Below, piece by piece: positions 4,715-41,891 of a DNA stretch of 64,000 nucleotides. Under the pieces are notes generated by a model. That model worked only from the letters and a program-made list of their open reading frames with translations. It had not been told where the DNA came from and did no database searches. Position 1 is the first letter of the stretch, and the number at the start of each line of letters is the position of its first letter. The translations under genes and the position numbers were made by a program. The stretch is taken from assembly GCA_937929935.1 (NCBI GenBank), contig CALFUL010000011.1, positions 62,001-126,000 on the forward strand, given 5' to 3'. Source of the DNA: an uncultured Flavobacteriaceae bacterium (GTDB taxonomy: Bacteria; Bacteroidota; Bacteroidia; Flavobacteriales; Flavobacteriaceae).

Positions 4715-4789
4715 TTTTCTAATTCAGACATTTTTAGCACCAGTAATTTACTATTTACTTGATTTTTACAAGTTAAAGCACCAAAAAAG

Positions 4790-4833
4790 TGCAATTCATC
4801 GATGATTTTTTATAAGAAAATACAGTTCATCGA
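4790..4833 (+). promoter_or_regulatory. Paired direct repeat TRCANTTYATCGA, LytTR-like site
   Basis: Two perfect copies of the 13-base motif stand in direct orientation 31 bases apart: TGCAATTCATCGA (4790-4802) and TACAGTTCATCGA (4821-4833). The second begins 85 bases before the small peptide start at 4906. ACAGTTCAT fits the published LytTR half-site pattern [TA][AC][CA]GTTN[AG][TG]. The same motif lies at the same distance before the other two tiny peptide genes. No LytTR regulator is in the window, so the binding protein is inferred. Confidence 0.5.
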
Positions 4834-4905
4834 ATTTATTAGCTCTTTTCGATATACTACACAATACCCATGTAAGATATAGTCAAAAGAGTTCGTTGTA
4901 ACTAT

Positions 4906-5070
4906 ATGACGCCTTACATATATACCATATTAGCCTACGTTCTACTTATGCTGACCGCTAAAGTTGTATTTAGATATCACGAATTCAAAAAAGCTGGCAA
5001 ATCATTATTTCCTCAAAAGGAATTTAATTGGTCTAGCGTAAAAGAAGGAGTTTTAAGCTATTTATTTTAG
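4906..5070 (+). CDS. Small single-span membrane peptide, 54 aa (family member 1)
   Basis: This small ORF encodes a 54-residue peptide. It opens with MTPYIYTILAYVLLMLTAK, a single hydrophobic span with Tyr at positions 4 and 11, followed by a basic tail (FRYHEFKKAGK) and a C-terminal extension ending in SYLF. I do not recognise a described family. Its N-terminus has the same layout as the peptides at 5231 and 41186 (M-x-x-Y-[IL]-x-x-[IL]-x-x-Y). All three have the motif TRCANTTYATCGA about 85 bases upstream, which is the main argument that they are real genes. It lies alone between the sugar operon and the next tiny gene. Confidence 0.5.
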   Translation: MTPYIYTILAYVLLMLTAKVVFRYHEFKKAGKSLFPQKEFNWSSVKEGVLSYLF

Positions 5071-5123
5071 AGACACTACATCTTTAGTAAGCCAGCTTAA
5101 AAAGTGAAAAAATCAATAAAAGT

Positions 5124-5157
5124 TACGTTTTAGCGGATTATTATTGCACTTTATCGA
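5124..5157 (+). promoter_or_regulatory. TRCANTTYATCGA motif with imperfect upstream copy
   Basis: TGCACTTTATCGA (5145-5157) begins 86 bases before the small ORF start at 5231. A 10-of-13 match, TACGTTTTAGCGG, starts at 5124, exactly 21 bases upstream, about two helical turns. This is the second of three such sites in the window. Confidence 0.45.
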
Positions 5158-5230
5158 TATTTCTTTCGTATTTTTATAATAGAAGGAAACTATTTCCGTT
5201 TTATAAACGTAAATATTAAAAGACTGAGAT

Positions 5231-5314
5231 ATGGAAAAGTATCTAATTATATTATTACTCTACATTGTAGCTTACGTTTTTTCTCTTGTAGTTAAGCCGT
5301 TTAGCGAGAAGTAA
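5231..5314 (+). CDS. Tiny single-span membrane peptide, 27 aa (family member 2)
   Basis: This 27-residue ORF, MEKYLIILLLYIVAYVFSL followed by VVKPFSEK, is almost entirely one transmembrane helix with a short charged tail. Its size resembles KdpF- or CydX-type auxiliary subunits, but no kdp or cyd gene is near, so function is not assigned. It shares the M-x-x-Y-[IL] start, Tyr at position 11 and the upstream motif with the peptides at 4906 and 41186. A hairpin terminator at 5370-5403 closes the unit, 55 bases past the stop. Support is comparative within this window only. Confidence 0.5.
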   Translation: MEKYLIILLLYIVAYVFSLVVKPFSEK

Positions 5315-5369
5315 TTTTTTGCACTTGTTCAAAGTAATTTTAAATGCTTGTTTTAAATCATTTAAAATC

Positions 5370-5403
5370 AAAAAACCCTGATAATTAGTTATCAGGGTTT
5401 TTT
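5370..5403. terminator. Bidirectional hairpin terminator
   Basis: A 15-bp perfect inverted repeat (arms 5370-5384 and 5389-5403, loop TTAG) has a T-run on either strand. It sits between the plus-strand tiny peptide gene and the end of nrdA on the minus strand, so it can terminate both. Confidence 0.85.
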
Positions 5404-5426
5404 GGTTATTAAGGTAAGCGTTCTTT

Positions 5427-41101: not shown

Positions 41102-41135
41102 TGCATTTCATCGATAAAATCATACATTTTATAGG
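41102..41135 (+). promoter_or_regulatory. TRCANTTYATCGA motif with imperfect downstream copy
   Basis: TGCATTTCATCGA (41102-41114) begins 84 bases before the tiny peptide start at 41186. An 11-of-13 match, TACATTTTATAGG (41123-41135), follows exactly 21 bases downstream. This is the third site of the set at 4790 and 5124. Confidence 0.5.
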
Positions 41136-41185: not shown

Positions 41186-41272
41186 ATGGATACATATATT
41201 ATAACTTTAGCCACTTACTTGATCCTAATGCTTTTCTGTAAAGTATATTACAGTATCAGTATGAAAGAATAA
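41186..41272 (+). CDS. Tiny single-span membrane peptide, 28 aa (family member 3)
   Basis: This 28-residue ORF, MDTYIITLATYLILMLFCK followed by VYYSISMKE, is one hydrophobic helix with Tyr at positions 4 and 11 and a short polar tail. Its layout matches the peptides at 4906 and 5231, 36 kb away, as does its upstream motif at -84. The folate cyclo-ligase gene starts 43 bases downstream on the same strand and may be cotranscribed. No described family is recognised. Confidence rests on the three-way pattern. Confidence 0.5.
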   Translation: MDTYIITLATYLILMLFCKVYYSISMKE

Positions 41273-41315: not shown

Positions 41316-41891
41316 ATGTTGAAAAATGACTTACGAATAAAATATAAGGAGCTTAGAGATACTATATCTCCGCAAAAACGTTTGCACCTTAGCTTAACAA
41401 TAGCCAACAAACTTCTAGAACTACCTGTTTGGCATTCTGAATATTACCATATTTTTCTGCCCATTGTCAATAAAAAAGAAGTTGACACCTCTTTTATACT
41501 TTCAATTTTACAAGGCAAAGACAAAAATATTTTACTACCAAAAGTAGATGGCAAAAACACATTAAAGCATTTTTTGTTGACTGACAACACCAAATTAGCT
41601 GCTAATAAATGGGGTATCCCTGAGCCCATAGATGGTATTGAAATAGATGTGACTAAAATAGAAGTTGTTTTTGTGCCTCTTTTAGCTTTTGATAAAAAAG
41701 GAAATAGAGTAGGCTACGGCAAAGGGTTCTATGATACTTTTCTTTCTAGCTGCAAAGAATCAGTACTCAAAATAGGCTTGTCTTTTTTTGAAGCTGAAGA
41801 CAACATCAAAGATATTATACCTGAAGATATTTCGTTAGATTACTGTGTAACGCCAGATAAAACTTATTCGTTTACTAGGCCTAATTCTTGA
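41316..41891 (+). CDS. 5-formyltetrahydrofolate cyclo-ligase family protein
   Basis: This 191-residue enzyme of the methenyl-THF synthetase family recycles 5-formyl-THF to 5,10-methenyl-THF with ATP. Family motifs are FLPIVNKKEVDTSFI (about residues 47-61), KWGIPEPIDGIEIDVTKIE, and VPLLAFDKKGNRVGYGKGFY (about 122-141) with the GYGKGFYD nucleotide-binding loop. It overlaps the convergent lspA gene by 28 bases at the 3' ends. Start ATG at 41316-41318. Confidence 0.92.
   Translation: MLKNDLRIKYKELRDTISPQKRLHLSLTIANKLLELPVWHSEYYHIFLPIVNKKEVDTSFILSILQGKDKNILLPKVDGKNTLKHFLLTDNTKLAANKWGIPEPIDGIEIDVTKIEVVFVPLLAFDKKGNRVGYGKGFYDTFLSSCKESVLKIGLSFFEAEDNIKDIIPEDISLDYCVTPDKTYSFTRPNS

Follow-up and report, generated by a model that had tools for sequence, protein, structure and literature searches.

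Several very small bacterial membrane proteins, such as KdpF, CydX and AcrZ, act on a larger membrane partner; like MgtS, they are too small for many gene callers, a common one of which has a 90-nt floor. Others, such as TisB and Ibs, are the small hydrophobic toxins of type I toxin–antitoxin pairs, and such toxins typically lack a single copy, fixed synteny and strict sequence conservation. Regulators of the LytTR type bind to direct repeats of 9 bp separated by a 12-bp spacer, as given in the extract of PMC2766830, and the AlgR box is CCGTTCGTC in the extract of PMC4064291. The window studied here, the whole 64,000-nucleotide stretch that was analysed, comes from an uncultured Flavobacteriaceae bacterium and holds three ORFs, at 4906–5070 (P1), 5231–5314 (P2) and 41186–41272 (P3), whose products of 54, 27 and 28 residues are those that a sequence-only reading had listed. 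They share with KdpF, CydX, AcrZ and MgtS a length of 25–55 residues and one hydrophobic helix, but lack a credible Pfam or NCBIfam match and a recognised adjoining partner gene, and carry a conserved Tyr/Lys pattern of their own. They are three membrane micropeptides kept in many marine flavobacteria and so far undescribed in Pfam, NCBIfam and the PDB, their membrane location being predicted from hydrophobicity. P2 and P3 measure 84 and 87 nt, stop included; they fall below the floor of that gene caller, and genes kept in 30 genera (P3, E < 1e-6) may therefore lack annotation.

P1 and P2 occupy a gap with a xylose-isomerase-like TIM-barrel gene on one side and nrdA, facing them, on the other; a terminator-like hairpin closes this gap. 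Its features are as follows.

4790..4802, plus strand: distal TGYANTTCATCGA site of P1, starting at −116 from the ATG
4821..4833, plus strand: proximal site of P1, TACAGTTCATCGA, starting at −85
4846..4860, plus strand: inverted arm TTTTCGATATACTAC, facing the proximal P1 site (by eye)
4873..4897, plus strand: putative P1 promoter-like element, TAAGAT-N15-CGTT (by eye)
4906..5070, plus strand: P1 ORF, 54 residues, predicted single-pass membrane peptide with a polar C-terminal tail
5145..5157, plus strand: TGCACTTTATCGA site before P2, found here and unconserved in relatives
5187..5215, plus strand: P2 promoter-like element, an AAAC box (by eye) plus CGTAAATA
5231..5314, plus strand: P2 ORF, 27 residues, predicted single-pass membrane peptide
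5369..5404, no strand assigned (listed on the minus strand): terminator-like hairpin in the P2–nrdA interval

The neighbours of P1–P2 vary between genomes, unlike those of P3: nrdA does not adjoin the pair in L066, L067, L069 and L085, and in L081–L083 and L085 it lacks the GMC and gluconate-dehydrogenase genes beside it. Because the neighbouring genes change, P1–P2 is a unit of its own, and membership of either peptide in the GMC/gluconate dehydrogenase or nrd genes is ruled out. In L061, L063, L066, L068, L074 and L078, an inserted gene of 454–469 residues, which by eye resembles tryptophan synthase beta, lies upstream of the pair.

P3 lies 43 bp before the gene for 5-formyltetrahydrofolate cyclo-ligase (5-FCL) in the window, with a divergent uvrC on one side and, on the other, 5-FCL and then the gene for signal peptidase II (lspA), which is convergent.

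41102..41129, plus strand: P3 direct repeat, its halves TGCATTTCATCGA (41102) and TACATTT (41123) being spaced by 21 bp
41186..41272, plus strand: P3 ORF, 28 residues, predicted single-pass membrane peptide
41316..41891, plus strand: 5-FCL (Pfam PF01812)

uvrC, 5-FCL and lspA are constant neighbours of P3, and the order uvrC/P3/5-FCL/lspA is kept in 30 of 30 fetched loci, the window's own included. P3-less genomes were compared at the same place: setting aside 3 of 26 genomes without 5-FCL and 3 of the 23 loci without a readable 5-FCL start, all 20 readable loci (16 from Flavobacteriaceae and 4 from other families of the order, where absence rests on a single locus analysis) have 5-FCL with neither a same-strand motif (≤2 mismatches; the motif is described below) nor, by eye, a P3-like ORF upstream. 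The 5-FCL start taken in one P3-less locus (L290) is doubtful, and one has a two-mismatch motif match on the opposite strand before 5-FCL. Since P3-less loci are without both motif and peptide, site and P3 come and go together; thus the two do not simply belong to 5-FCL. Could P3 instead be a leader ORF for cis regulation of 5-FCL, by translation coupling or attenuation, with no function as a peptide? Its place directly before 5-FCL in all 30 fetched loci, at a few tens of bases wherever the start was read (an internal start was taken in L195), would suit such a leader. P1 and P2 precede no fixed gene, however, P3 residues are conserved up to the C terminus, and no Rfam family matches the P3 locus at E ≤ 1, which together make a leader quite improbable.

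The three ORFs are almost certainly real genes. Relatives of P3 were found, one match each, in 32 of 199 Flavobacteriaceae genomes at E ≤ 0.01, of which 31, from 30 genera, match at E < 1e-6 with frame and residues kept; the other 167 have no match. Of the 14 genus genomes, the own one among them, 13 hold an intact P3; the fourteenth locus (L105) starts inside P3, with the tail alone visible by eye. Of the 199 family genomes, 19 have a P2 match at E ≤ 0.01 and 13, the own genome among them, have one at E ≤ 2.2e-8; two of the weaker matches, inside frames of more than 600 residues, are doubtful. P2 also occurs in 28 named loci from Maribacter, Zobellia, Pricia, Euzebyella and uncultured relatives. 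In a P1 search across 59 genomes, 24 had a match at E ≤ 1, and chance surely accounts for many of the weak ones; a relative is present in all 14 genus genomes, own included, with the 13 others at E values from 4e-11 to 0.026. A P1-like ORF is readable in 12 of those 13 loci (G011 has no ATG at the expected start), and P2 lies beyond P1 in 12 of 13, the contig ending first in L020. Differences at codon positions 1/2/3 are 0.31/0.21/0.62 for P2 (39 sequences), 0.24/0.10/0.53 for P3 (12 of 13 sequences, the thirteenth being excluded for its different length) and 0.31/0.17/0.48 for P1 (first 24 codons, 5 of 18 sequences); these third-position-biased changes match those of coding DNA. P1, P2 and P3 are thereby directly shown to be conserved coding genes. 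That the ORFs arose by chance, with the upstream motif alone being real, would fit peptides so short that no annotation or profile names them. P3, though, keeps frame and residues across those 31 genomes and 30 genera and changes mainly at third positions, and we give chance next to no weight. The sequence-only reading had called chance ORFs unlikely and proposed looking for small ORFs in related Flavobacteriia: the relatives exist, the absence of conserved ORFs that would have counted against it was looked for and not found, and orthologues, synteny and coding-type substitution show that it had understated its case.

All three peptides have Tyr at positions 4 and 11, behind the starts MTPYI (P1), MEKYL (P2) and MDTYI (P3), and each has one hydrophobic stretch, with a polar tail in addition in P1; the common N-terminal pattern, Tyr 11 and single hydrophobic stretch noted earlier are evident in the translations. 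Relatives extend these to MxPYxYxIxAYxxLMLxxKxAF... for P1 (window sequence and relatives), M[DE]KYxIILxIYxxAYxFSxxxKPYxEK for P2 and MDxYxITxGTYLILMLFxKVYYAVAxKE for P3. All three alignments have an invariant Tyr 11; Tyr 4 is invariant in those of P2 and P3 and frequent in P1. Leu 14, which is nearly invariant in P1, and Lys 19 are common to P1 and P3, and Y11 and K19 are invariant in 19 P1 sequences. Profile comparisons align P1 with P3 (probability 91–94%) and P2 with P3 (93%) from residue 1, and 0 of 150 column shuffles reach either score; P1 against P2 gives 9–14%, and 3 of 150 shuffles do as well as the comparison at 13.7%. The three peptides probably form one family. Conservation on one helical face, which helix packing would lead one to expect, is weak (p = 0.02 for P1, 0.06 for P2 and 0.49 for P3), in sequences chosen with patterns that fix some positions.

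Searches named no described family. Pfam at E ≤ 10, with the window's P1, P2 and P3 plus two relatives, returned only EMC6 at 0.031, below the cut-off, for a P1 relative; 13 A4 members had no Pfam match, and 14 A2 members gave only PGA2 at 0.19 and a plant domain at 0.35. NCBIfam had no match to the peptides, PDB profile searches found no credible relative (one chance match, E 0.93), and phage records, compared with the DNA around P3 only, held no credible match. Among the papers that literature searches listed, titles and abstract openings describe neither the peptides nor the motif, which is no proof of absence. Pfam includes models for KdpF and CydX, so the earlier view that the peptides are not such a described subunit stands for P1–P3 and for the A4 and A2 members, none of which has a Pfam profile match; partner-complex genes of the KdpF/CydX type are likewise not recognised among the neighbours of P1–P2 or P3. 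Related to one another by the P1–P3 and P2–P3 profile matches, and matched to no described family, the peptides are both related and undescribed, as had been suggested.

The same results bear on two alternatives. Accessory subunits (KdpF-, CydX- or CcoQ-like) that belong to a known respiratory or transport complex and have diverged too far for a profile to recognise would be of the same size class, with a single helix, and might retain a conserved Tyr and Lys as these peptides do; the lack of a credible Pfam, NCBIfam or PDB match, of any such gene recognised beside P1–P2 or P3, and of a P3 match in 167 of 199 family genomes, unlike core respiratory subunits, makes this distinctly unlikely. Type I toxins of the TisB or Ibs kind are less probable still. 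Peptide size and hydrophobicity fit, and the ohsC antitoxin RNA matches weakly at 5339–5407 (plus strand), after P2 (27.2 bits against a cut-off of 50, E 0.077). The same hairpin also weakly matches many unrelated Rfam families, though, nothing in Rfam reaches the gathering score at the P1–P2 locus or E ≤ 1 at P3, and one copy per genome, fixed P3 synteny and strict conservation are unlike such toxins; we regard a toxin as very improbable.

A TGCAnTTyATCGAT site precedes all three ORFs in this window, and the shorter GCAnTTyATCGAT occurs 10 times in the own genome against once for the reversed pattern. The TGYANTTCATCGA motif, TGYAnTTCATCGA, occurs 261 times in the 14 genus genomes against 6 for the control (summed table), and 177 against 8 in 20 further chosen family genomes (summed), where 98 matches fall in 8 genomes with P3 and 79 in 12 without it. 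Because it occurs in genomes with and without P3, the motif is older than the peptides. Before P3, it is found with ≤1 mismatch in 35 of 40 distinct upstream regions and with ≤2 in all 40, starting 69–87 bp before the start codon; before P1, the figures are 12 and 16 of 18, with the best site at −85/−86 or −115/−116 in 14 of 18. Before P2, by comparison, only 1 of 39 distinct regions has the motif at ≤1 mismatch and 3 at ≤2. Shuffled controls give 0.000–0.001 at 1 mismatch and 0.010–0.017 at 2; the pattern that picks upstream regions did not capture P3 in L193 or P1 in L016, L020 and L022.

The P3 promoter shows a direct repeat. A second half (≤1 mismatch) stands at +21 in 19 of 35 sites and at +20 in 3, so that 22 of 35 have the LytTR geometry; a lesser peak lies at +41 (7 of 35), and, each site being counted once, 13 have no recognisable second half at 20–21 bp. 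Among 97 other sites, a sample from fetched loci and not all motif matches, the second half is at +20 in 18 and at +21 in 3 (other offsets 0–5), leaving 76 without one at 20–21 bp, again each counted once. A second half at this distance equals the published LytTR geometry, to the extent that the extract of PMC2766830 describes it, and the sites are in this respect like those of AlgR, AgrA and SilA, direct repeats with a period of about 21 bp (PMC2766830, in extract). The core variant CAGTTCATC is similar to the AlgR box CCGTTCGTC, from which it differs at two positions (PMC4064291, in extract). The consensus here is TGYAnTTCATCGA, the second half is present in part of the sites, and P1 has an inverted second arm. 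P1 carries two sites about 31 bp apart and, by eye, this inverted arm instead of a direct repeat: the opposite strand matches the motif at ≤2 mismatches in 0.72 of 18 regions, and proximal site and arm form a perfect inverted repeat in L017 (by eye). The TAAGAT-N15-CGTT element before P1 keeps its spacing in most relatives, also by eye. We consider it likely that a putative LytTR-type regulator acts on P1 and P3.

P2, though part of the set, has a predicted promoter of its own. Of 39 upstream regions, 30 carry CGTATA 25–36 bp before the P2 start codon, and an AATC/AAAC-type box (by eye) precedes it at a nearly fixed distance; in relatives the element reads as a TAATCTTTT-type box, then CGTATATA. 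Its layout resembles what we take to be an alternative-sigma (ECF-type) promoter. The strict element occurs only at P2 genes, in 4 of 14 genomes; a looser form has 9 matches against 7 for the control, of which 5 are at P2 genes by place, and no further genes with the element were found above control. Membership of P2 in an ECF-sigma regulon was accordingly rejected. The sequence-only reading had placed all three peptides behind one shared motif and under one regulator. The conserved site before P1 and P3 upholds this for those two; before P2 the motif is present in the own genome but in only 1 of 39 regions, and P2 has its own element. A single regulator for all three is ruled out because the P2 site is not conserved.

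The sequence-only reading had also offered signalling or membrane stress as a possible role; the other genes that are readable behind the motif point to the cell surface and exopolysaccharide rather than to stress. In the own genome and in G006, the sites stand before small lipoproteins, before lipoproteins whose start is of the CxKDSDL type (by eye) and before PKD- or Ig-domain proteins; in the own genome they also precede a polysaccharide-lyase-like protein (PF14099) and a DUF1800 protein, the latter with a look-alike (by eye) in G006. In G091, two sites lie before a CxKDSDL-type lipoprotein, near genes resembling nucleotide-sugar enzymes as read from sequence. Several sites precede no clear gene. 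Among the genus genomes (for example, L146–L178), TGYAnTTCATCGA resembles the mark of a regulon that spans the family and takes in surface lipoproteins, PKD proteins and genes linked to exopolysaccharide. To our knowledge, little is known about the control of surface polysaccharide genes in marine flavobacteria, and the motif offers a testable regulon there with a named candidate two-component system. A LytTR-type site before exopolysaccharide and surface genes is also a feature of the AlgR regulon of Pseudomonas (alginate), as far as the extract of PMC4064291 goes; the phylum differs, micropeptides are included here, and the likeness is one of gene type.

With ten LytTR proteins in the own genome, we name a candidate regulator only tentatively, at a little short of even odds: the LytTR protein whose gene adjoins that of a TPR/HisKA_2 histidine kinase (C10 in the own genome). 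The kinase gene follows the LytTR gene, as verified by Pfam in the own genome and G226 only, and the motif lies between them in both; the other nine of the ten own LytTR loci have no motif within the fetched 3.2–3.3 kb. Orthologues of the candidate (86–92% identity, E ≤ 1e-60) are present in 30 of 30 chosen genomes with P3 and in 0 of 14 without it. A site with ≤1 mismatch lies in the 700 bp after the gene in 12 of these 30 loci, always on the minus strand and never on the plus strand; at the same threshold and in the same interval, 18 of 30 have none. The genomes with P3 cluster in a 5-FCL tree (5 label changes against a shuffled mean of 14), itself poorly resolved, covering 48 of 67 loci and compatible with one origin as well as with several. 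Because of this clustering, the co-occurrence of candidate and P3 can be ancestry alone, and we do not treat the perfect match across the 44 chosen genomes as independent evidence. Some genomes that have neither P3 nor the candidate gene carry the motif too. Sites in two P3-less genomes precede TPR histidine kinases of another kind, with a clear HATPase domain and a HisKA domain just under the cut-off. LytTR genes 4.7–7.1 kb from P2, present in 11 of 28 named loci, were rejected as the candidate regulator, their best own match being L097 at 32–41%.

LytTR systems in Firmicutes are often paired with peptide signals. This association would favour reading P1–P3 as exported signalling peptides, and SilA–SilB with SilCR is a LytTR system with a peptide signal according to the extract of PMC2766830. 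Conservation covers the whole hydrophobic helix, however, with no variable part, and exported signals appear highly improbable.

Our preferred account is that P1, P2 and P3 would be conserved single-pass micropeptides of the inner membrane, with P1 and P3 transcribed from promoters that carry the TGYAnTTCATCGA site, mostly 70–116 bp ahead of the start codon. The 20/21-bp repeat, whose geometry is seen and whose binding we infer, would be where a dimeric response regulator of the LytTR type binds and activates; the LytTR protein beside the TPR/HisKA_2 kinase is the candidate for this role. The peptides would probably be made when the cell turns on a surface or exopolysaccharide programme, because the same sites precede surface lipoproteins, PKD proteins and the polysaccharide lyase. 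By analogy with KdpF, CydX and AcrZ, their most likely role would be to pack a helix against a larger membrane protein, as its accessory subunits or modulators, and we lean modestly towards such a partner-binding role. Taken whole, the account of inner-membrane micropeptides with an accessory role at an envelope partner, in which a LytTR regulator controls P1 and P3, seems to us evenly poised. A bolder version, in which the three paralogues, as a clade-wide set, would form the conserved inner core of a large LytTR surface/exopolysaccharide regulon of marine Flavobacteriaceae and feed back on the membrane-bound kinase or the envelope export machinery, is speculative and, in our judgement, rather unlikely.

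Further small ORFs and site arrangements were seen in passing. On the minus strand of L168 (G000:C15:31500-35500), at about 1533–1828 of the reverse complement, a hydrophobic 46-residue ORF is preceded by a perfect tandem TGTATTTCATCGAT pair with a 20-bp period, and is possibly a fourth micropeptide of the regulon; small lipoprotein-like ORFs of 46 residues also lie behind the motif in L170 and L151 (own genome and G006). Two motifs facing apart with 21 bp between them occur in L150 at about 2660–2710 (G006), at the 3′ end of a 632-residue gene resembling amidophosphoribosyltransferase, the only such context read, and facing-away pairs with the same spacing also occur in G001, G003, G012, G226, G091 and G068.
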